A stretch of 64,000 bases of DNA, from positions 1,178,001 through 1,242,000 of the forward strand of contig NZ_JAMQOP010000001.1 in NCBI RefSeq assembly GCF_031624495.1. Reading direction: 5' to 3'. The position numbers and the translations under genes are program-made. This document shows positions 3,574 through 41,096 of this stretch, piece by piece. The stretch's first letter is position 1, and each line of letters starts with the position of its first letter. The notes beneath the pieces were generated by a model. The model worked only from the letters and a program-made list of their open reading frames with translations, had not been told where the DNA came from and made no database searches. The DNA comes from Halogeometricum sp. S1BR25-6 (GTDB taxonomy: Archaea; Halobacteriota; Halobacteria; Halobacteriales; Haloferacaceae).

Positions 3574-4866
3574 TCACTCCTCTACCGCCGAGGCCGCCCG
3601 AATCATCGTTTCCTCGCCGAACTTCGGCCCGACGAGTTGGAGTCCGACCGGAAGACCGTCGGCCTCGCCCGCCGGCACGGAGATGGCGGGGAGGTTCGCG
3701 AGGTTCACCGGGACGGTGTTGGCGTCCATCAGGTAGAGTTGGAGGGGGTCCGAGAGGCTCTCGCCGAGTTCCGGCGGGAGGACGGGCATCGTCGGGGTGG
3801 CGAGGACGTCCGCCTCCTCGAACGCCGCGTCGAAGTCCTGTTTGATCCACGCGCGGGCGTCCTGAGCCTTCTTGTAGTACTTGTCGTGGTAGCCGGCCGA
3901 GAGGGCGTACGTCCCGAGGAGGATGCGGCGTTTGACCTCTTCTCCCAGACCCTCCTCGCGCGTCTCGGCGTACGTCTCGTTCCAGTTGCCCTCTTTCCCC
4001 GTTGAGAGGCCGTAGCGCACGCCGTCGTAGCGCGCGAGGTTCGAGGAGGCCTCGGACATGGCGATGACGTAGTACGCCTGCACGGCGTGCTCGACCGATT
4101 CGAGGCTCACCTCGACCACCTCGGCGCCCTGCGATTCGAGGTCGGAGACGGACCGCTCGAACGTCTCCACGACGCGGTCGTCCGCGCCGTCGAGGAGGTT
4201 CGTGACGACGCCGACGGTGAGACCGTCCACGTCGCCGTCCGCGGCGGCCGCGTAGTCCGAGTCCGCGGCGGGGTGAGCGTCCATCGACTCGTCGAACCGC
4301 GTCGTCGCGTCGCGGTCGTCGGCGCCCGAGACGACGTTGAGGAGGGCGGCGGCGTCCTCGACGGTCGACCCGATGGGGCCGACCTGCTCCAAGGAGTTCG
4401 CGTAGGCGACGAGACCGTACCGGGAGACCAGCCCGTAGGTGGGTTTGATGCCGACGACGCCGCAGAAGGCGGCCGGGTTGCGGACCGACCCGCCGGTGTC
4501 GGTGCCGAGGGCGACGTCCGCCTCGCCGGCGGCGACGGCGGCGGCCGACCCACCCGAGGACCCGCCGGGGACTCGCTCCTCGTCGACGGGATTTTTCGTC
4601 GGGCCGAACGCGGACGTCTCCGTGGTGCCGCCCATCCCGAACTCGTCCATGTTGGTCTTGCCGACGACCGTCGCGCCGGCCTCCTTCAGGCGTTCGACGA
4701 CGGTGGCGTCGTACGGCGGGACGTAGTCTTCGAGCATCGCGGACCCACACGTCGTGCGGACGCCCTCGGTGCTGATGTTGTCCTTGACGGCGACGGTGGT
4801 TCCCGCGAGGGGGCCGTCGTCGGCGCCGTCGACCGTTTCCTCGGTGATGAAGATGTTCGCGCCCAT
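3574..4866 (-). CDS. gatA: Glu-tRNA(Gln)/Asp-tRNA(Asn) amidotransferase subunit A
   Basis: Amidase subunit that hydrolyses glutamine and feeds ammonia to convert mischarged Asp-tRNA(Asn) and/or Glu-tRNA(Gln) to the correct aminoacyl-tRNA. 430 residues of the amidase-signature family. The Ser-cisSer-Lys triad is visible: Lys28 in TVAVKDN, the cis-Ser in PGGSSGGSAA (about 103-104), and Ser127 in GTDTGGSVRNP. It starts immediately after the gatC stop codon (TAG then ATG), so the two are translationally coupled. No gatB is in this window; in haloarchaea gatB is often unlinked. Confidence 0.96.
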   Translation of the reverse strand: MGANIFITEETVDGADDGPLAGTTVAVKDNISTEGVRTTCGSAMLEDYVPPYDATVVERLKEAGATVVGKTNMDEFGMGGTTETSAFGPTKNPVDEERVPGGSSGGSAAAVAAGEADVALGTDTGGSVRNPAAFCGVVGIKPTYGLVSRYGLVAYANSLEQVGPIGSTVEDAAALLNVVSGADDRDATTRFDESMDAHPAADSDYAAAADGDVDGLTVGVVTNLLDGADDRVVETFERSVSDLESQGAEVVEVSLESVEHAVQAYYVIAMSEASSNLARYDGVRYGLSTGKEGNWNETYAETREEGLGEEVKRRILLGTYALSAGYHDKYYKKAQDARAWIKQDFDAAFEEADVLATPTMPVLPPELGESLSDPLQLYLMDANTVPVNLANLPAISVPAGEADGLPVGLQLVGPKFGEETMIRAASAVEE

Positions 4867-5145
4867 CTACGACACCCGCGGGCCCTTGAAGAAACCGTCC
4901 TCGGACTCGGGAGCGTTCTGCAGGGCCTCCTCTTGGCTCAGACCGTCGCGCACCTCGTCGGTCCGCATGACGTTCACGAGGTCGGGGTCGGCCTCAACCT
5001 CCGGAACCTCGTCGAGGGCGTCGAAGTACTCGAGGATGTCTGCGAACTGGGCGGCGAACGCCTCGACTTCTTCCTCGTCGAGGTTCACCCGCGCCAACTC
5101 CGCGACGTGACGCACCTCATCGGCGTCCACGGGCGTATCGCTCAT
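4867..5145 (-). CDS. gatC: Glu-tRNA(Gln)/Asp-tRNA(Asn) amidotransferase subunit C
   Basis: 92-residue stabilising subunit of GatCAB. It has the usual N-terminal helix pattern VRHVAELARVNLDEEEVEAFAAQF and the C-terminal segment with MRTDEV followed by an NAPESEDGFFKGPRV ending, typical of the family. A longer in-frame start at 5646 was rejected because it runs through the divergent tfb gene. On the minus strand TTACTCTTGA lies about 27 bases upstream of the ATG, consistent with a leaderless transcript carrying gatC-gatA. Confidence 0.95.
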   Translation of the reverse strand: MSDTPVDADEVRHVAELARVNLDEEEVEAFAAQFADILEYFDALDEVPEVEADPDLVNVMRTDEVRDGLSQEEALQNAPESEDGFFKGPRVS

Positions 5146-5326
5146 GTTCGTCACGAACCGGGGGTCAAGAGTAAGGGTTTCGGTGTGGGCGCCGGGCGGG
5201 TGGAAACCCCACTGCGGCGACCCCGCGGTCCGATTTCGTCGTTCGCTAGCCATCAGATATATGCCCAACGCGCGCGTAGTATAGTGTACGGAGAACCCTC
5301 CGACCCATTCTCTGCACCCAATCAAA

Positions 5327-6316
5327 ATGACCGAAACCACCCGAAGTTTTCGTACGCGTAGCGCACGCGCGCGCGAGAACGAAGGAGAGGAAGAAGAGAC
5401 CCAAGAGGAGGACGAGACGCTTCGCTGTCCGGAGTGCGGTTCGACGAACCTCGTGAACGACAGCGAACACGGCGAGACGGTGTGCGAAGAGTGCGGACTG
5501 GTCGTCGAAGAGGACGCCGTCGACCACGGCCCCGAGTGGCGCGCCTTCGACTCCTCCGAACGCGACCAGAAGTCCCGCGTCGGCGCCCCGACGACGAACA
5601 TGATGCACGACAAGGGGCTGTCGACCAACATCGGCTGGCAGGACAAGGACGCCTACGGCAACTCCCTGTCGTCGAACCAACGTCAGAAGATGCAGCGCCT
5701 CCGAACGTGGAACGAGCGCTTCCGAACCCGCGACTCCAAGGAGCGCAACCTCAAACAGGCGCTCGGCGAAATCGACCGCATGGCCTCCGCACTCGGCCTC
5801 CCCGACAACGTCCGCGAGACGGCCTCGGTCATCTACCGACGGGCGCTGGACGACGACCTGCTTCCGGGCCGCTCCATCGAGGGCGTCGCCACCTCGGCGC
5901 TCTACGCGGCCGCGCGGATGGCCGGGACGCCCCGGTCGCTCGACGAGATAACCAGCGTCTCCCGCGTCGGCAAAGACGAGATATCCCGGACGTACCGCTA
6001 CGTCGTCCGCGAACTCTCGCTCGAAATCGAACCCGCCGACCCCGAGCAGTACGTCCCGCGGTTCGCCTCCGACCTCGACCTCTCGGACGAGTCCGAGCGG
6101 CACGCCCGACAGCTTCTGAAGACGGCCAAAGAGCAGGGCATCCACTCGGGCAAATCGCCCGTCGGCCTCGCAGCCGCCGCCATCTACGCCGCCTCGCTGC
6201 TCGCCAACGAGAAGGTGACGCAGAGTCAGGTGAGCGAGGTGGCCAACATCTCGGAAGTGACCATCCGCAACCGCTATCACGAACTGCTCGAAGCCGAAGA
6301 GCATCTGGTCGCTTAA
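5327..6316 (+). CDS. tfb: transcription initiation factor TFB (TFIIB homologue)
   Basis: Bridges TBP at the promoter and RNA polymerase. 329 residues: a charged N-terminus, a zinc ribbon with Cys34, Cys37, Cys53 and Cys56 (CPECGSTN and CEECGLV), the B-finger/linker region, then two cyclin-like repeats (about residues 135-225 and 230-325), with an HTH-type motif near the end (SQVSEVANISEVTIRNRY). Haloarchaea carry several TFB paralogues, so this is one of a family and the exact paralogue number cannot be given. The gene is divergent from gatC; candidate TATA elements are at 5255-5262 and 5277-5286. Confidence 0.96.
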   Translation: MTETTRSFRTRSARARENEGEEEETQEEDETLRCPECGSTNLVNDSEHGETVCEECGLVVEEDAVDHGPEWRAFDSSERDQKSRVGAPTTNMMHDKGLSTNIGWQDKDAYGNSLSSNQRQKMQRLRTWNERFRTRDSKERNLKQALGEIDRMASALGLPDNVRETASVIYRRALDDDLLPGRSIEGVATSALYAAARMAGTPRSLDEITSVSRVGKDEISRTYRYVVRELSLEIEPADPEQYVPRFASDLDLSDESERHARQLLKTAKEQGIHSGKSPVGLAAAAIYAASLLANEKVTQSQVSEVANISEVTIRNRYHELLEAEEHLVA

Positions 6317-6459
6317 CCGGGCGACCCTTCCGCTCCGTTCGGGGTCCTTCTCCTCTCCGCCCCGCTTTCCTTCCTCTCTCCCTTACGCGAGCGACGTCTC
6401 CGTCCAGCGCACTCGACGGAGAGCGTAACACCCAATCCGGTGCCCCCGAACCGGCGTCC

Positions 6460-6936
6460 ATGGAGACGACGCGACACTTCACCGCGACGGTGTACATCGT
6501 CAACGACGGCGCCGTCGCCCTGCACCGCCACGAGCGACTCGGCATCCGCATCCCGCCCGGCGGTCACGTCGACCGGGACGAACTCCCGCACGAGGCGGGA
6601 CTCAGGGAGGTCCGCGAGGAGACGGGTCTCGTCGCCGAGTTGCTCGACGAGACGGACCCGGTGGCCGCGCCCGCCGGGGAAACGCTCCCCGACCCGCGCC
6701 GCCAGATGCTGTACGACATCGACGTCCGCGAGGACGGCCGCGTCGGCCACCAGCACGTCGACCACGTCTACTACGCGACGGTCGACTCGCGCGAGATCGA
6801 CCCCGACGGGCACGACGAGGCGGACCCGGAGGTGTGGGCGTGGTACGACGCTGCGGACTTACAAGAGAGCGACGTCGACCCCGACACCGTGCAGTTCTCT
6901 CTAGAGGCCATCGACGCCGCCGAGCGCGCGGGCTGA
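6460..6936 (+). CDS. NUDIX hydrolase
   Basis: 158-residue hydrolase of nucleoside diphosphates linked to other moieties. The Nudix box is intact: Gly35, Glu41, then REVREETGLV with Arg49-Glu50 and Glu53-Glu54 as metal ligands. A His-rich segment (HQHVDHVYY) sits in the second half. A longer in-frame extension from 5434 runs through tfb and is spurious; the ATG at 6460 gives a family-typical N-terminus (HFTATVYIVNDG). It lies convergent with the asparagine-synthase-like gene, 10 bases apart. Substrate unknown. Confidence 0.9.
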   Translation: METTRHFTATVYIVNDGAVALHRHERLGIRIPPGGHVDRDELPHEAGLREVREETGLVAELLDETDPVAAPAGETLPDPRRQMLYDIDVREDGRVGHQHVDHVYYATVDSREIDPDGHDEADPEVWAWYDAADLQESDVDPDTVQFSLEAIDAAERAG

Positions 6937-6946
6937 CCTACTCTCC

Positions 6947-8056
6947 TCACCTCTCCTCTTCGACCAGCGACCGGACGTACTTCTCGACGTGGTCGTCCAT
7001 CCGTCGCTTGTACCCCGCCTGCCGGGCGAGTCGGTCCAACTCCCTCGACGCGTACGTGCCGTACTGCACGGCCTTCTTTTCCACCGAGGCGACCGACTCG
7101 GGGACGAGTCCGCGCGCCGCCTCCCGGAGCGCCACCTTCCGGCGGCCGTCGGCGACGAGCAGTTCGTCCGGAAGGGGGAGCGCCGCGCGCACGACCCGGT
7201 CGTGGAGCAGGGGCGCGACGGGTTCGACGCCCGCCGCGCGCAGAGCGAGCACGTCTCGCTCCAATTGGTCGGGGAGCGTCCGAACCATCTCCGCGGCCGC
7301 GCCGCGGACGGTGTCGGCCTCGACGCGGGGGTCCTCGGGCGCCTTCGCCACCTTGGCGTACCCGCCGAACAGTTCGTCGGCCCCCTGCCCGACGGCGAGT
7401 CGGTCGAAGCCGTCGGCGGCCGCGCGCTTTCCGACGAGATAGAGCGGCAGCGCTATCTGGAGGTCCATCGGGTTCATCCGGCCCAGTATCGAGACGAGTT
7501 CGGGGACGGCCCCGCGGATGTCGTCGTGAGTTAATTCGACCACGCGCAGGTCTGCCCCCCGGCCCATCGCCGCGGCGGCGTCGCGCGCGGCGGCCACGTC
7601 GTGGCTCCCCTCGAACCCGGCGACATAGCAGGGAGCGTCGGGGACGCCCGCGGCGACGACGGCGGAGTCGACGCCGCCGGAGAACGCGACCGCCAATCCG
7701 TGGTCGTCGACGCCGCGCACCGACTCGGTGACGGCGTCCGAGACGGCCGACAGCGCTGCCGCTCGATTCGTCTCGGCCGGCGGCGTCGGGAGCGTCCACA
7801 GCTCCTCGTCCCCCGCGGCGGTCCGGCGACTCCCGGCCGGGACGCGCATCGGGTCCGAGAGGTCGCGTCGGTCGAACGACCACGCGCTGGGCGCACTCGG
7901 GTCGGCGGCGCCGCGTTCGGAGAACAGCGGCTGTCTGCCGAGGACGTCGCGGACGAGAGCGCCGTCGAGTTCGCCAGCGAACCCAGCGGTGCCGGGGAGC
8001 GGGTCGCCCGAGTCGACGGCGGCGCGAACCGTCTCCGGGTCGGCGCCGCGGAGCAT
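6947..8056 (-). CDS. asparagine-synthase-like ATP-pyrophosphatase, glutaminase half degenerate
   Basis: 369 residues. The C-terminal two thirds is an AsnB-type synthetase domain with PP-loop SGGVDS at 126-131 and GQGADELFGGY at 223-233. The first ~70 residues resemble a shrunken remnant of the N-terminal Ntn glutaminase (VRDVLGRQPLF is similar to the DPLGRRPLY part) but there is no Met-Cys N-terminus, so glutamine hydrolysis in cis looks impossible. It should use ammonia or a partner, or adenylate a different carboxylate. Start ATG shares one base with the stop of the upstream PHP gene (TGATG), so the two are co-translated. A longer frame to 8869 runs through that gene and was rejected. Confidence 0.85.
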   Translation of the reverse strand: MLRGADPETVRAAVDSGDPLPGTAGFAGELDGALVRDVLGRQPLFSERGAADPSAPSAWSFDRRDLSDPMRVPAGSRRTAAGDEELWTLPTPPAETNRAAALSAVSDAVTESVRGVDDHGLAVAFSGGVDSAVVAAGVPDAPCYVAGFEGSHDVAAARDAAAAMGRGADLRVVELTHDDIRGAVPELVSILGRMNPMDLQIALPLYLVGKRAAADGFDRLAVGQGADELFGGYAKVAKAPEDPRVEADTVRGAAAEMVRTLPDQLERDVLALRAAGVEPVAPLLHDRVVRAALPLPDELLVADGRRKVALREAARGLVPESVASVEKKAVQYGTYASRELDRLARQAGYKRRMDDHVEKYVRSLVEEER

Positions 8057-8739
8057 CAGAAGAAGTCGGCGACGCCGCGTCTCACGCGGCGGGTGACGCC
8101 GCCGCCGAACTGCCGGAGCGAGATGCGCCACGGCGTCCGGTTGCCGATGACGTTCGTCTCTCCTCGGACGACGGCGTCGAGGATGCCCTCGACCGAGCGG
8201 TCGTCCGTGCCGACCTGCGTGACGGCCTGCCCGACCATCTCGCTGATGTGGGCGTCGCTGCCAGCGGTCTTCGGCAGGTCGCGCGCGGTGGCGAACTTCT
8301 CGGCCTTGCGGTTCGAGCGGCCGGTGAACAGCCGCGAGTTGTACACCTCGATGGCGTCGGCGCCGGCGAGTTGCGTCCGGGTGATGTGCGGGGCGACCCC
8401 GTGCCGGGAGGACTGGAACGGGTGCGGGACGACGGCGATTCCGCCCTGGTCGCGTATCTCCGTCAGCGTCTCGTCGAAGGAGAGCCCCGCGGGGACGAGT
8501 TCGTCGATGCCGAGTCCGAGGACGTGCCCCGCCGCCGAGGTGACTTCCATGCCCGGGATGCCGACGAGGCCGTACTCCTCGGCGATGTCGGCGGCGCGCA
8601 GGCTCTCCTCTATCTCGTCGTGGTCGGTGACGGCGAGGGCGTCCAGTCCGACCGCCTGCGCCTGTTCGAGGAGCAGCTCTATCGGGTCGCGGCCGTCGTA
8701 GGACAGCGACGAATGCGCGTGCAACTCGACCGATAACAC
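8056..8739 (-). CDS. PHP-domain metal-dependent phosphoesterase
   Basis: 227 residues of the PHP superfamily (TIM-like barrel with a trinuclear metal site). Metal-ligand motifs in order: ELHAHSS, VTDHDE, GMEV, VPHPF and GSDAH. Known relatives include histidinol phosphatase, 3',5'-nucleoside bisphosphate phosphatase and polymerase-associated PHP domains; the short length and single-domain build fit the YciV/TrpH-like group, but substrate cannot be inferred. It is the first gene of a two-gene operon with the asparagine-synthase-like protein. Confidence 0.88.
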   Translation of the reverse strand: MLSVELHAHSSLSYDGRDPIELLLEQAQAVGLDALAVTDHDEIEESLRAADIAEEYGLVGIPGMEVTSAAGHVLGLGIDELVPAGLSFDETLTEIRDQGGIAVVPHPFQSSRHGVAPHITRTQLAGADAIEVYNSRLFTGRSNRKAEKFATARDLPKTAGSDAHISEMVGQAVTQVGTDDRSVEGILDAVVRGETNVIGNRTPWRISLRQFGGGVTRRVRRGVADFF

Positions 8740-8908
8740 GGATAGAACTAACCGCCCCGGTTAGAAAAGCGGCGCGGTCCGACCCGCGAATCGGTCGTCG
8801 GCTCGACGGCGATTCGATTATCGTCCGGCAGCGATTCGACGGCGATTCGATACGCACGTTCGTGGACATAGAAAGGTCTTAGAGCCTGCGTTCTGACCAC
8901 ACCAGTGA

Positions 8909-36303: not shown

Positions 36304-36576
36304 TCAGCGTTCGGGGTCGACGTCGAGGTCGGACTCGGATTCGAACTGCGCCTCGCGCCGACGCTGCTCTTCGCGTATCCGCTCGTCCCACTCCTCGAAC
36401 AGTCCGTACTCCGTCATCGTGGTCATCCCCGCGATGGCCGCCCGGAGTTTGATTCCGATGAGCGGAATCTCCGCGACGGTGACGACCACGTCCGCGTCGA
36501 GGACGGCGCCGTCGCGCAGGAGCACGTCCACGAGGTCGACCACGGCGTCGTCGTCACTCGGCGGGTCCGGTTCCAT
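36304..36576 (-). CDS. gvpM: gas vesicle protein GvpM
   Basis: 90 residues from the ATG at 36576, a GvpA/J-like paralogue. Core: VVDLVDVLLRDGAVLDADVVVTVAEIPLIGIKLRAAIAGMTTM, which parallels the GvpA shell helix-strand pattern, followed by a charged helix. A longer in-frame start at 36606 adds only Arg-rich sequence. It overlaps the end of gvpL by 23 bases and is the last gene of the leftward gvp operon. In Halobacterium GvpM is essential for vesicle nucleation or assembly. Confidence 0.9.
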   Translation of the reverse strand: MEPDPPSDDDAVVDLVDVLLRDGAVLDADVVVTVAEIPLIGIKLRAAIAGMTTMTEYGLFEEWDERIREEQRRREAQFESESDLDVDPER

Positions 36577-37471
36577 TCTCCTCTCTCTCCGTTCCCGTCT
36601 CCGCATCTTTTCTCTCCGTCCCTCCCTCCGAATCCGCGGGTTCGAGCGCGTCCGGCGCGAACGTGTACGGCGGCCACGGGCCGGTGAACCGGACGGACGC
36701 CCCGTCCTCGTCGGCGACGGTGTCGAGGTACTCGCCGACGGCGTCGCACTCCCCCTCGTCGGCGAGGACGGCGAACCGGGCCGTCGGTCCCGTCGGCGCC
36801 TCGGTCAGCGGCGTCTGCGGCGCGTCGCCGAGTTCGCGCACCTCGTCGGTCATCGACTCCAGTTCCGCGACGAGTTCCTCCGAGCGCGCCCGACGCCGCC
36901 GATTCACGAGCGTCGAGAGCCGCTTGTCGTACTGCTTCTGCACGAGAAAAGCCGTCCCCTCGGAGGCGTCCGAGAGCTTCTCCCCCAGTTCGGCGAGTCG
37001 CTCGTCGTCGCTGCCGACCCGTTCGGCGAGGGCCTCGCGGTCCCACTCGACCTCCACGCGGTACTCCCACCGGCCGGCCAGCGAGTCCAGCGCGTCGGCG
37101 AGGGTTTCCTCGTTCGCTGCCAGCCACTCGCGAATCGTCTCGTCGCCGCCGCGGACGATGGTGTCGAAGCGGAACGGCACCGGCGTCCCGAACGCCTCGC
37201 CGACGTCCTCGACGGCGTCTTGGTGGTCGTACAACCACTCGCGCACCTCGTCGGGCGCGTCCGACTCGTAGGGGTCGCTGCGCTCGTGGACGATCGCCGA
37301 GAGTCGCTCGGTCGAGACCACGGAGAGCGATGCGCCGCCGACGCCCGCGGCGTCGAGTCGCGCCGCCGCGTCGTCGTCCCGACGGACGACGCAGTAGAGG
37401 TAGCGCCCGTCCTCGTCGGCGCCATCGGCCGCGTCGTCGTCCGCACCGGGCGCACCGTCAGCGTCGCTCAC
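36554..37471 (-). CDS. gvpL: gas vesicle protein GvpL
   Basis: 305 residues from GTG 37471 (ATG 37501 is possible but gives an Arg-rich start). GvpF/L family: [12 protein letters not shown] opens the N-terminal half; the C-terminal half contains [19 protein letters not shown] and ends with the shared [12 protein letters not shown] motif. GvpL is reported to interact with most other accessory Gvps in Halobacterium. It has an extra acidic/Thr-rich C-terminal tail. Overlaps gvpK by 14 bases and gvpM by 23 bases, so tight translational coupling. Confidence 0.93.
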
Positions 37472-37808
37472 GCGCCCCTCCCGCGTCCGGCGGCGCCGCA
37501 CCGTCGTCGCCCCTCCGACGCTCCTCGGTGCGGACTTGATGGACGGCGTCGGCGACGAGCGAATCCAGGTCGCCGCGGAGTTGGTCGACCTGCCCGTCTA
37601 TCTCTTGGTCCTCCTTCAACCGTTCGAGGTCCTCCTCCAACCGGGCGAGGTGGCTCCCGAGGCGCTCTATCTCCTCGTCGGTGAGGCTCCCCGACTCCAT
37701 GCGCCGAATCGCCTCGCGTTCGAGGGCGTCGACGAGAATCTCCACGACGGCGACGACGACGGCCGTCAGTCCGTTCGCACCGTCCTCGTCGACTTCGACG
37801 GTCGTCAT
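37458..37808 (-). CDS. gvpK: gas vesicle protein GvpK
   Basis: 116 residues. The GvpK core is clear: [40 protein letters not shown] followed by a coiled [12 protein letters not shown] helix and a [14 protein letters not shown] segment. A short Gly/Arg tail is appended. ATGA overlap with the end of gvpJ. Reported essential for vesicle formation in Halobacterium. Confidence 0.94.
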
Positions 37809-38356
37809 TCGTCATCCCCCTCGTCGTCCGCGTCGTCGGCGTCTTCAGCTTCTCCGGTATCCTCGCCCCCGTCACCGCTCTCTGCCTCTCCGCCGCTCGC
37901 GTTCTCGCTCTCGACCTCGTTTTCGGCTTCGGCCTCGGCCTCGGCCTCGGGGTCTCCCCCGCCCGCACCTCCGCTCTCGTCGGCCGACCGCTCGTCGTCC
38001 GACTCGCCTACCGTCGCGTTCATCACGTCGACGGAGCGGTCCTCGCGGTCCTCCTCCGCCTCGTCGCGCCGCTCCTCTTCGAGTCCGGGTCGCCCCGACG
38101 GCGACATTTTGGCCTGCCGTCGGCGCTGGCTGGCCGCCTCGACGGCCTCCATGTCGGTTCCGGAGGGGAACTCCAGACCGAACTCCGAGGCCGTCTCGAA
38201 CGACGCCAGCGCCGCCCGGAGGCGGATGCCGAGCAGTTCCGTCTCGCCGACGGAGACGACGATGTCGGCGTTGAGCACGACGCCCTTGTCGAGGAGGAGT
38301 TCGACCACGTCCGCGAGGCTGTCGGAGTCGCGCCCCGGGCGGACCGGATCAGGCAT
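37805..38356 (-). CDS. gvpJ: gas vesicle protein GvpJ with long acidic tail
   Basis: 183 residues. Residues 12-60 are a GvpA-like core: [43 protein letters not shown]. The family is usually about 100-115 residues; here ~110 residues of hydrophilic, mostly acidic sequence follow ([19 protein letters not shown] and similar), ending in Asp/Glu only. Whether the tail acts as a chaperone-like brush or is halophilic padding is unknown. Overlaps the preceding gene by 8 bases and gvpK by 4. Confidence 0.92.
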
Positions 38357-39230
38357 CGTCTTCCTCCTCGGCGAACTGGTCGAACCGCGACCCGTACACC
38401 CGCTTCCGGTTCGGCGCGTTGGAGTACTTCGACTCGGCCGGCACCGTCGAGTACTTCGTGTCGGCGTCGGCGACGCCGTGCGAGGCGGCGAGCGTCGAGT
38501 ACGCCGTCGGGTTCCGGGAGTCGGGCTGACCGGTCCGCTCGACGCGCTTGCGGTTCTCCTCGCGCAGTCGCTCGATACGGTCGTGCGTGGCGACGAGTCC
38601 CTCGCGGAACTCGTCGACGCTGTCGGAGAGCTTCGACTGTATCGCGGTCTGGTAGGCCTCGTCGGGCAGTTCGATGTCGTCTCTGTCGTCGTCGTCGCCC
38701 ATCCCCACCGCCTCCTTGGCGTCCTCGGCGTCGACGTCGATGAGTTCGTCCTCGTCGTCCTCGTCGTCGGTGAGGTCGTCGACGAACGGGAGGGTGTCCT
38801 CGTCGTCGGTCTCGTCGAGTTCTTCGAGGGCCTCCTCGAACTCACGTTTGTTCCGCCAGACGTCGCGTACGTCGACGGAGTCCCAGAGTTCGCCGATGTC
38901 GATGATGGCGAGCAGTTTCCGGAGGCGAACCGCCTCCTCGGGGTCGGCGTTCGTTATCGCCTCGGAGAGTTTCTCCTCGTGAATCACCTCGTCGGCGTCC
39001 TCGTGGTCGACGGCGTCGGGGAGGTCCGTCAGGTCGACGGCGTCGAGCAGTTCGTCCGCCTCGTCGACGACGACCTGCAGGTCGCGCAGAATCTCCGCGA
39101 CCTCTGAGTCGTCCTCGCCGTCCATCGCGGCCTCGCTCAGTTCCAGCGCTCTGATGACGAGCGAGGAGACGTCCATCTCGTCGTTCCCGCTCTCTTCTTC
39201 CGCCCCGTCCGCTCGCTCCTCGCCGCTCAT
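38349..39230 (-). CDS. unrecognised acidic protein in the gvpH/gvpI position of the gas vesicle operon
   Basis: 293 residues at the place where haloarchaeal clusters carry gvpH and gvpI. It shows neither an Hsp20 beta-sandwich (GvpH) nor the short basic build of GvpI. Layout: a helical N-terminal half with VIRALELSEAAMDGEDD, DLTDLPDAVDHEDADEV and LLAIIDIGELWDSVDVRDVW; an acidic linker (TDDEDDEDELIDVDAED); a coiled-coil LSDSVDEFREGLVATHDRI; and a C-terminal motif with SRNPTAYSTLA, KYSTVP, KYSNAP then RKRVYGSRF. The repeated YST/YSN-P units and basic RVYG ending are similar to C-termini I have seen in unassigned haloarchaeal proteins. ATGA overlap with gvpG and 8-base overlap with gvpJ make it a genuine operon member. 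Confidence 0.82.
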   Translation of the reverse strand: MSGEERADGAEEESGNDEMDVSSLVIRALELSEAAMDGEDDSEVAEILRDLQVVVDEADELLDAVDLTDLPDAVDHEDADEVIHEEKLSEAITNADPEEAVRLRKLLAIIDIGELWDSVDVRDVWRNKREFEEALEELDETDDEDTLPFVDDLTDDEDDEDELIDVDAEDAKEAVGMGDDDDRDDIELPDEAYQTAIQSKLSDSVDEFREGLVATHDRIERLREENRKRVERTGQPDSRNPTAYSTLAASHGVADADTKYSTVPAESKYSNAPNRKRVYGSRFDQFAEEEDDA

Positions 39231-39478
39231 CGCTGCACCACCACCTTGTCGCTGAGTCGCTCGCGGGCGCGTTCGGCCGCGTCGAGTTCGGACTCCAATC
39301 GGGCGCGCTCGCGTTCGTACTCCTCCTCGTCGCGTTCGCCGATTTCGTAGAGCAGTTGGTTCTCCTTGAGGTCGCTCTGGATGGACTCGGTGTCATACAT
39401 CTCCTGGACCGCCAGCGAGTGGAGCACGTCCACCACGTTCGTGATGGGCCACAGGAGGATGTCGTCGAGGAGGAACAC
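39227..39478 (-). CDS. gvpG: gas vesicle protein GvpG
   Basis: 83 residues from GTG 39478: FLLDDILLWPITNVVDVLHSLAVQEMYD followed by an amphipathic/coiled charged helix (REEEYERERARLESELDAAERA-type). The long frame to 39526 would overlap gvpF; the GTG two bases after the gvpF TAA is the better start. ATGA overlap with the next gene. GvpG is an essential accessory protein in Halobacterium. Confidence 0.92.
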   Translation of the reverse strand: MFLLDDILLWPITNVVDVLHSLAVQEMYDTESIQSDLKENQLLYEIGERDEEEYERERARLESELDAAERARERLSDKVVVQR

Positions 39479-39480
39479 GG

Positions 39481-40104
39481 TTACTGCGCCTCGATTTCGA
39501 CGTCGACGAAGTTGTAGGGCGCCCACGGCCCCGTGTACTGTACGGTCGCGTCGGGATAGTCGTCTTCGAGTTCGGAGACGGCCTCGCCGAACGCTTCCTG
39601 GGCGTCGCGGTCGACGAGGTACGACCGGTTGAACAGCAGGCGCTCGGAGTAGAGGTCGTTCTCGGCCTCCTGGTCGCTGACGGCGACGAGTCGCTCCGAG
39701 ACGTCCGCCGTGACGTCCTCGCGCGTCAGGGACTCGTCGTCGGGACCGACGAGTTTGACCCCGAGTTCGACCTTCCCGTCGACGTCCATCAGCGCCTTCC
39801 GGAAGGCGCGTCGCCCCCCGCGCATGACGCTTTTGAGCGTGCGAGCGCTCTTGAACGCCATCCCGTACTGCATCGGCACGACCGTCCGGCCCTCGCCCTC
39901 CATCATCACCTCTCTGAGCACCTCGTCGTGCGCCCGCGTGTTCTCGTCCGTGCGCTCGACGTCGACGTCGTCGATGGGCGTCACCACCGCCGACAGCGTC
40001 CGGAACGTCACGGTCTGGACCGGGCTTTCCCCTTCGACGCCCTCGATGTCCAGTTCGAGGTCCTCGGCCTCGATAACGCCGTACGCGTACAGATGAGAAC
40101 TCAT
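39481..40104 (-). CDS. gvpF: gas vesicle protein GvpF
   Basis: 207 residues. Opens with HLYAYGVIEAEDLEL, continues with VPMQYGMAFKSARTLKSVM and LFNRSYLVDRDAQEAF, and closes with the GvpF/L signature VQYTGPWAPYNFVDVEI. In Halobacterium GvpF binds GvpA and probably helps it enter the growing shell. First gene of the leftward operon; a TATA element lies at 40177-40183, giving a leader of about 50 bases. Confidence 0.94.
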   Translation of the reverse strand: MSSHLYAYGVIEAEDLELDIEGVEGESPVQTVTFRTLSAVVTPIDDVDVERTDENTRAHDEVLREVMMEGEGRTVVPMQYGMAFKSARTLKSVMRGGRRAFRKALMDVDGKVELGVKLVGPDDESLTREDVTADVSERLVAVSDQEAENDLYSERLLFNRSYLVDRDAQEAFGEAVSELEDDYPDATVQYTGPWAPYNFVDVEIEAQ

Positions 40105-40237: not shown

Positions 40238-40259
40238 CGTGACGCGACGAGGTGAAGTG

Positions 40260-40535
40260 ATGCCAGCAGATAGCCCGGATGCTTCCAGTTTGGCCGACGT
40301 GCTGGACCGAATTCTCGACAAGGGGATCGTTATCGACATATGGGCGCGCGTGTCCGTCGTCGGTATCGAGATCCTGACCGTCGAGGCGCGTATCGTCGCC
40401 GCCTCGGTGGACACCTTCCTGACGTACGCTTCAGAGATGGCGAAAATCGAAAAAGCCAGTCAGGGGGACTTAGAGGAACTCCAAGAGTTGGATATCCGGC
40501 GCGCGAACCCGCAGGCGGCGCCCGACGCCTCCTGA
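40260..40535 (+). CDS. gvpA: gas vesicle major structural protein GvpA
   Basis: 91 residues. The nearly invariant shell core is present: [40 protein letters not shown] and [15 protein letters not shown]. It forms the ribbed helical wall of the gas vesicle. The C-terminal tail ([19 protein letters not shown]) is longer and less Ala/Glu-rich than in Halobacterium GvpA (about 76 residues). The in-frame start at 40239 was rejected because it lies in the promoter. gvpO follows 12 bases downstream. Confidence 0.97.
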
Positions 40536-40547
40536 GGAGGGTGACCC

Positions 40548-41096
40548 GTGCCCGACCAGTGTAGGGCCGTTACCGAGGGTGGCGAACGGTGTTCGCGACC
40601 GGCGAACGAAAACGGTTTCTGTCACCAACACGGCCCGGAGAACGAAACCGTCGACGAGGCCGACTCCGACGACCCCGGCGACCCGTCGGACCCCGACGCG
40701 GACGACGACCGGAAGGATTCCACGATGGCAGACGACACAGACTCCAACGAAACGACCGACGACGCCGAATCGCAGGAGGAGACCGAGTCATCCGACGAGA
40801 CCGAATCGTCGGACGAGACCGGATCGACCGACGAATCGACCATCGTGACCGTCCGGGACAAGGTGAGAGACGAGGTGCCCCAACTCATCGGCCGCGAGTT
40901 GGACGGCGTCACTAGCCTGATGCAGACCGAGGACGGTTGGATGGCGACGGTCGAACTCGTCGAACGTCGTTCGGTGCCGGACACGCAGGACCTCATCGGG
41001 CAGTACGAGGTATCGATCGGAGACGACGCGGTTATCGACGGCTACCGTCGCCTGGAGACGTACCGCCGGGCCGAGGGCCCGGAATACGACGCCTGA
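40548..41096 (+). CDS. gvpO: gas vesicle protein GvpO with N-terminal Cys/His-rich extension
   Basis: 182 residues from GTG 40548. The C-terminal ~85 residues are GvpO: VTVRDKVRDEVPQLIGRELDG, GWMATVELVERRSVPDTQDL and IGQYEVSIGDD. Residues 5-28 form a CCCH cluster (Cys5, Cys15, Cys25, His28) of the CxA-T-GxRC-R-CxxH kind, followed by an acidic linker with DE/SS repeats. A strong Shine-Dalgarno (GAGGAGGG, 40534-40541) precedes the GTG. An internal ATG at 40725 (with GGAAGG 9 bases before) would give a 123-residue protein of normal GvpO length. GvpO is essential in Halobacterium. Confidence 0.9.
   Translation: MPDQCRAVTEGGERCSRPANENGFCHQHGPENETVDEADSDDPGDPSDPDADDDRKDSTMADDTDSNETTDDAESQEETESSDETESSDETGSTDESTIVTVRDKVRDEVPQLIGRELDGVTSLMQTEDGWMATVELVERRSVPDTQDLIGQYEVSIGDDAVIDGYRRLETYRRAEGPEYDA

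Follow-up and report, generated by a model that had tools for sequence, protein, structure and literature searches.

The gene on the minus strand at positions 38349–39230 of a 64,000-nucleotide stretch of the Halogeometricum sp. S1BR25-6 genome (contig NZ_JAMQOP010000001.1, positions 1,178,001 to 1,242,000; hereafter the window) encodes a 293-residue protein that is almost certainly, judged by its sequence, a long form of GvpI, a known gas-vesicle accessory protein. Residues ∼192–287 match the p-vac and c-vac GvpI proteins of Halobacterium (blastp E values 1.5e-10 and 2.6e-10; phmmer 3e-10 and 1.5e-8, respectively), and a profile of 42 long proteins aligned with that of 13 short GvpI sequences over 93 columns (99.2% probability, E 1e-19). 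Common to the long and short proteins is a helix, forming a coiled coil, followed by the pattern NPxAxST...STVP...kYS...RxRxYGxR. An earlier note, made from the letters of the window, had seen nothing GvpI-like in this protein and proposed a new, unassigned accessory factor. The last ∼100 residues are, however, a GvpI, and what stands of that proposal is an accessory protein at the gvpH/gvpI position in which an extra domain is joined to a known one.

38349..39230, minus strand: gvpI, long form, 293 residues (C-terminal GvpI homology and position)

The open reading frame runs from an ATG at 39230 to 38349 and, as had been noted, overlaps gvpG (39526..39227) by 4 bases and gvpJ (38356..37805) by 8 bases. 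Its GC content at the three codon positions (0.74/0.35/0.90) is similar to that of the neighbouring gvp genes, and a comparison with the orthologue of Halogeometricum pallidum shows 89 differences, 47 of them at third positions; both properties support coding. Scans of Pfam and NCBIfam returned no family of any kind for the 293-residue protein, including the Hsp20 or GvpH domain (PF05455), whose absence had been correctly predicted. Neither database gave a GvpI match for this protein or for other long forms, nor did NCBIfam give one for the short forms, and this accounts for the ‘hypothetical' labels that these genes carry in databases.

The genomic context is consistent with the assignment. 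The gene lies directly before gvpJ in all of the 101 clusters examined (100 fetched clusters plus that of the window), and the annotated order gvpF-gvpG-gvpH-[hypothetical protein]-gvpJ in Haladaptatus and Natrinema places it in the gvpI slot. Where gvpH is present, the order is gvpG-gvpH-long gvpI-gvpJ. Of the 391 genomes of the class, 158 have a detected homologue, and gvpG is present in all 158. Only two of the 160 gvpG-containing genomes compared lacked a match, and both encode a short GvpI.

The Halobacterium salinarum GvpI proteins (p-vac, 144 residues; c-vac, 113 residues) resemble the long form in their slot before gvpJ, their coiled coil and their NPxAxST...STVPxxxkYS...RxRxYGxR tail. 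In contrast to the long form, they are strongly basic, have no N-domain and always occur in clusters with gvpC and gvpH. The window protein therefore falls outside the short type (113–144 residues, basic, no N-domain, gvpC in the cluster): it has 293 residues, is acidic (96 Asp plus Glu vs 29 Lys plus Arg), carries an N-domain and is encoded in a cluster that lacks gvpC. It instead combines the features of the long type, namely the acidic N-domain captured by profile A4, the GvpI C-terminal domain and a gvpC-less cluster. The architecture, given here in minus-strand coordinates, agrees with that described previously, comprising a helical N-domain, an acidic linker, a long helix at residues 191–233 and a C-terminal S-T-x-P/RKRVYGSRF tail:

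38805..39119, minus strand: acidic helical N-domain, residues 38–142, with runs of D-x-x-E-L-P-x-A-V/I-D (alignment A4, 42 long GvpI proteins)
38661..38804, minus strand: acidic linker, residues 143–190, 37% Asp plus Glu and 1% Lys plus Arg over the family; predicted local confidence (pLDDT) mostly below 50
38532..38660, minus strand: long helix or coiled coil common to short GvpI, residues 191–233 (homology and model)
38376..38519, minus strand: GvpI signature tail SRNPTAYST..KYSTVP..KYSNAPNRKRVYGSRFD, residues 238–285, near-invariant columns in 42 long GvpI proteins, common to Halobacterium GvpI

The two forms of GvpI define two types of cluster. Long GvpI occurs in 87 of the 101 clusters, including that of the window, and none of these 87 contains gvpC; gvpC is found in every one of the remaining 14, whose GvpI is short and basic. 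The difference is visible in the spacing of the genes, with 984–1761 bp separating gvpA from gvpN in the gvpC-bearing clusters, compared with a median of 117 bp between gvpA and the next gene in the long type. Wide gvpA-gvpO gaps in two long-type clusters, L130 and L135, were considered as possible sites of a divergent gvpC, but are filled by a long N-terminal extension of GvpO; these GvpO genes (L130:10214-11500 and L135:8512-9738, both plus strand) encode an acidic extension of ∼300 residues. It was also observed that in L062 the long GvpI is split over two frames (7245-8366 and 8174-8791, plus strand), reflecting a broken gene or an assembly error.

In a tree of GvpF, GvpG, GvpK and GvpL together the long and short types are separated by one branch (support 99). 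Rooting with a methanogen outgroup places the long types in one clade (support 99) with the short types basal, a topology that is compatible with either gain or loss of the N-domain.

The earlier note had also suggested that the protein replaces, or is a fusion of, GvpH and GvpI, an idea that fits the window in that the gene abuts gvpG with no gvpH between them. This explanation is very improbable. The protein has no Hsp20 part; GvpH, which occupies the neighbouring slot, has an Hsp20 domain and no sequence relation to long GvpI, and gvpH and long gvpI are found together in 67 of the 87 long-type clusters. Furthermore, the absence of gvpH from the other 20 clusters, which requires at least six changes on the gvp tree, does not always extend to the whole genome. 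A profile made only from cluster GvpH proteins detected GvpH-like genes unlinked to the cluster in 8 of these 20 genomes, at 73–101 bits, whereas Hsp20 proteins from genomes without gvp scored no higher than 62.8 bits. The 8 include each of the four species sampled from the genus of the window; the copy in the window genome scores 85.7 bits (L041:1504-1983, minus strand; contig C1, ∼601.4–601.9 kb). Although a GvpH tree placed this copy without support, the scores suggest that the unlinked genes are displaced GvpH rather than another branch of Hsp20 proteins. The co-occurrence of gvpH and the unlinked genes together refute the proposed replacement of GvpH. In one genome whose gvp cluster lacks gvpH (G337), the GvpH gene (L177:3043-3537, plus strand) adjoins a copy of the operon described below (3788-6912, minus strand).

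A search of 116 genomes with the N-domain uncovered further GvpI paralogues outside the gvp clusters. Eleven are stand-alone genes (L144–L154) that encode both the N-domain and the GvpI tail and have no gvp gene within 6 kb; one of them, L148, lacks the coiled coil through a deletion. Others close a conserved operon of four genes, h1-h2-h3-gvpI2, termed the satellite operon here. A profile of 26 of these operon-end genes aligned over its full length with long GvpI (99.6% probability, E 1.6e-23), while no control profile aligned, and the N-domain is retained in these paralogues. The h1 protein contains a 62-residue motif, VLxLDLEGLFLDLLGLEVDL...NLLGNLLSAVxGLL, h2 is rich in GxxxG, and h3 combines GxxxG with an end that, by eye, resembles SAP/Rho_N. 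The order h1-h2-h3 was found at 18 of 20 further h1 loci, with a GvpI paralogue detected in most. In the window genome the operon (locus L162) matches no Pfam or NCBIfam family and consists of the following open frames, whose starts are not fixed:

L162, 8428..5230, minus strand: whole satellite operon (contig C2, ∼889.3–892.5 kb)
L162, 8428..7463, minus strand: h1
L162, 7643..7104, minus strand: h2
L162, 7110..6343, minus strand: h3
L162, 6339..5230, minus strand: GvpI paralogue

The satellite operon seems to belong to the machinery for gas vesicles. Among long-type genomes, 129 of 146 contain the h1 domain, compared with none of 14 short-type genomes and 1 of 231 without gvpG (Fisher's exact test, 6e-72, kinship between genomes being ignored). 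By hand count, in 7 of the 8 genera that have h1 and both gvp-positive and gvp-negative species, h1 is confined to the gvp-positive ones; the exception is genome G137. Of the 100 genomes fetched, 20 have h1 no more than 7 kb away from the gvp cluster; in 6 of the 20 its place is between gvpH and gvpI or nearby. A plasmid in Halocatena also carries the h1 domain. A tblastn search of plasmids with the domain gave no matches, but also missed this known copy, and a low-complexity filter is suspected. The window genome contains a second, orphan h1-like open reading frame (L183:5527-6162, plus strand; contig C1, ∼1,891 kb), copies of which elsewhere in several genomes have a stop codon.

Insight into the likely role of long GvpI is provided by the short form of Halobacterium. 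Three studies (PMC4390858, PMC7688916, PMC9501494) report extremely long vesicles upon deletion of this protein, name GvpH, GvpL, GvpF and GvpC as its binding partners and describe it as driving oligomer formation by GvpJ, GvpK and GvpM; mutual binding of GvpH and GvpI is described in PMC7688916, and that of GvpI to GvpC in PMC9501494. By analogy, the C-terminal half of long GvpI would use its coiled coil and S-T-P/RxRxYGxRF tail to join the assembly complex centred on GvpL and GvpF, would bridge the GvpA-like proteins GvpJ and GvpM and GvpK, and would limit vesicle length. We consider the chances that the long form acts in length control to be about even.

The acidic N-domain is more difficult to interpret. 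A low-confidence model predicts helices at residues 41–64, 85–94, 97–118 and 121–143, and at each of the columns D66, P71, D75, W116 and D120 a single residue accounts for 70% or more of 42 sequences. The idea that the domain derives from a former GvpH or GvpC was rejected by profile comparison with 14 Gvp families, in which all probabilities were ≤1.3% (0.2% for GvpC). A PDB sequence match, 9e5c, was dismissed because it is an acidic repeat of low complexity, was heavily bias-corrected and reached no significance for a single domain. A fold search with the model of long GvpI found nothing significant among solved structures (best E value 0.72), and viral contigs yielded no relatives.

One explanation is that the N-domain is solely a charge or solubility device, an acidic shield for a tail unusually basic for the haloarchaeal cytoplasm, with no GvpC-like role. 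The distribution of charge is consistent with this, the first 190 residues containing 32–37% Asp plus Glu and 1–6% Lys plus Arg, compared with 12% and 18%, respectively, in the last 60; the short form also manages without the domain. A pure charge shield, however, needs neither the pattern of conserved columns nor the retention of the domain in the satellite paralogues, and we regard this explanation as rather unlikely. Alternatively, the N-domain and the satellite operon may do the work of GvpC in a lineage that lacks it, by stiffening the shell or controlling its width or length. GvpC is a shell-reinforcing protein, a repeat protein of the shell surface. The perfect mutual exclusivity of long GvpI and gvpC, the restriction of h1 to long-type genomes with that single gvp-less exception, and the operons beside or inside gvp clusters all point in this direction, as does the binding of GvpI to GvpC in Halobacterium (PMC9501494). 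Conversely, GvpC has no sequence relation to the N-domain or the rest of long GvpI, h1 is missing from 17 long-type genomes, and accessory Gvp proteins are produced in small amounts, unlike GvpC. Such a GvpC-like role is rather unlikely on present evidence. The N-domain might, with lower confidence than the C-terminal half, supply in cis an acidic partner or the shape or strength function given by GvpC in the other lineage, or it might provide a surface that it and the operon's GvpI paralogue have in common; sequence does not discriminate between a GvpC stand-in, a satellite docking surface and a balance for the basic tail.

Collectively, the clusters fall into two haloarchaeal gas-vesicle lineages, one characterized by GvpC together with a basic GvpI of the short type; the second lacks GvpC and has a long GvpI and a mostly unlinked h1-h2-h3-GvpI paralogue operon. 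That long GvpI and this operon shape or strengthen the shell of the second lineage is our tentative proposal, less likely than not. Several points weigh against the functional readings of long GvpI. The exclusivity of long GvpI and gvpC, although perfect among the 101 clusters, represents one evolutionary event and not repeated replacement, as the gvp tree contains a single split. The N-domain profile is unlike GvpC, GvpH and other Gvp proteins, making distribution the one ground for a substitution of GvpC. The structure model, which shows the N-domain helices, one long helix (191–233) and a disordered tail, is weak (overall pLDDT 57.7), and was built on two sequences rather than on the 42-member alignment. 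The functional data for GvpI come from the short form, making the role of the long form one by analogy, and several long-type species are reported, in the relevant passage of PMC4390858, to lack visible vesicles.

The long gvpI gene itself was noted in 2012 in Natrialba magadii (Nmag_0338) and Haloterrigena turkmenica (Htur_2370). The passage concerned (PMC3403918) describes the Natrialba cluster as lacking gvpC, gvpD and gvpE, and both clusters as holding an additional gene absent from Halobacterium; it reports neither class-wide exclusivity with gvpC nor a satellite operon. The likeness of these genes to that of the window is drawn from this description. The exclusivity of long GvpI and gvpC, the dispersed GvpH genes and the satellite operon appear to be new, no mention of them having been found in the searchable literature, outside which subscription journals largely lie. 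Clusters without gvpC make up most of the haloarchaeal gvp clusters sampled, but the mechanistic studies found deal with the gvpC type. Long GvpI and an operon that tracks gvp genes, usually at a distance, offer concrete candidates for the shaping of vesicles without GvpC. Were the operon a shell or assembly module, a nanostructure employed for ultrasound imaging and antigen display would gain four components.

In the window cluster, gvpA and gvpO diverge from the minus-strand genes gvpF, gvpG, long gvpI, gvpJ, gvpK, gvpL and gvpM:

40548..41096, plus strand: gvpO (PF05800, NF045806)
40239..40535, plus strand: gvpA (PF00741, NF046092); the likelier start is the ATG at ∼40260
39481..40104, minus strand: gvpF (PF06386)
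39227..39526, minus strand: gvpG (PF05120, NF045779)
37805..38356, minus strand: gvpJ (PF00741, NF046090 above its cut-off)
37458..37808, minus strand: gvpK (PF05121, Pfam)
36554..37501, minus strand: gvpL (PF06386, NF045778 above its cut-off)
36304..36606, minus strand: gvpM (PF00741, NF046091 above its cut-off)

The cluster contains no gvpC, gvpD, gvpE, gvpH or gvpN, and as gvpO directly follows gvpA there is no room for gvpC or gvpN. GvpN was not found in the whole genome, where the scoring proteins are only generic AAA proteins. The GvpJ of the window (37805-38356) has 183 residues, compared with 114 in Halobacterium, the surplus being an acidic C-terminal tail.
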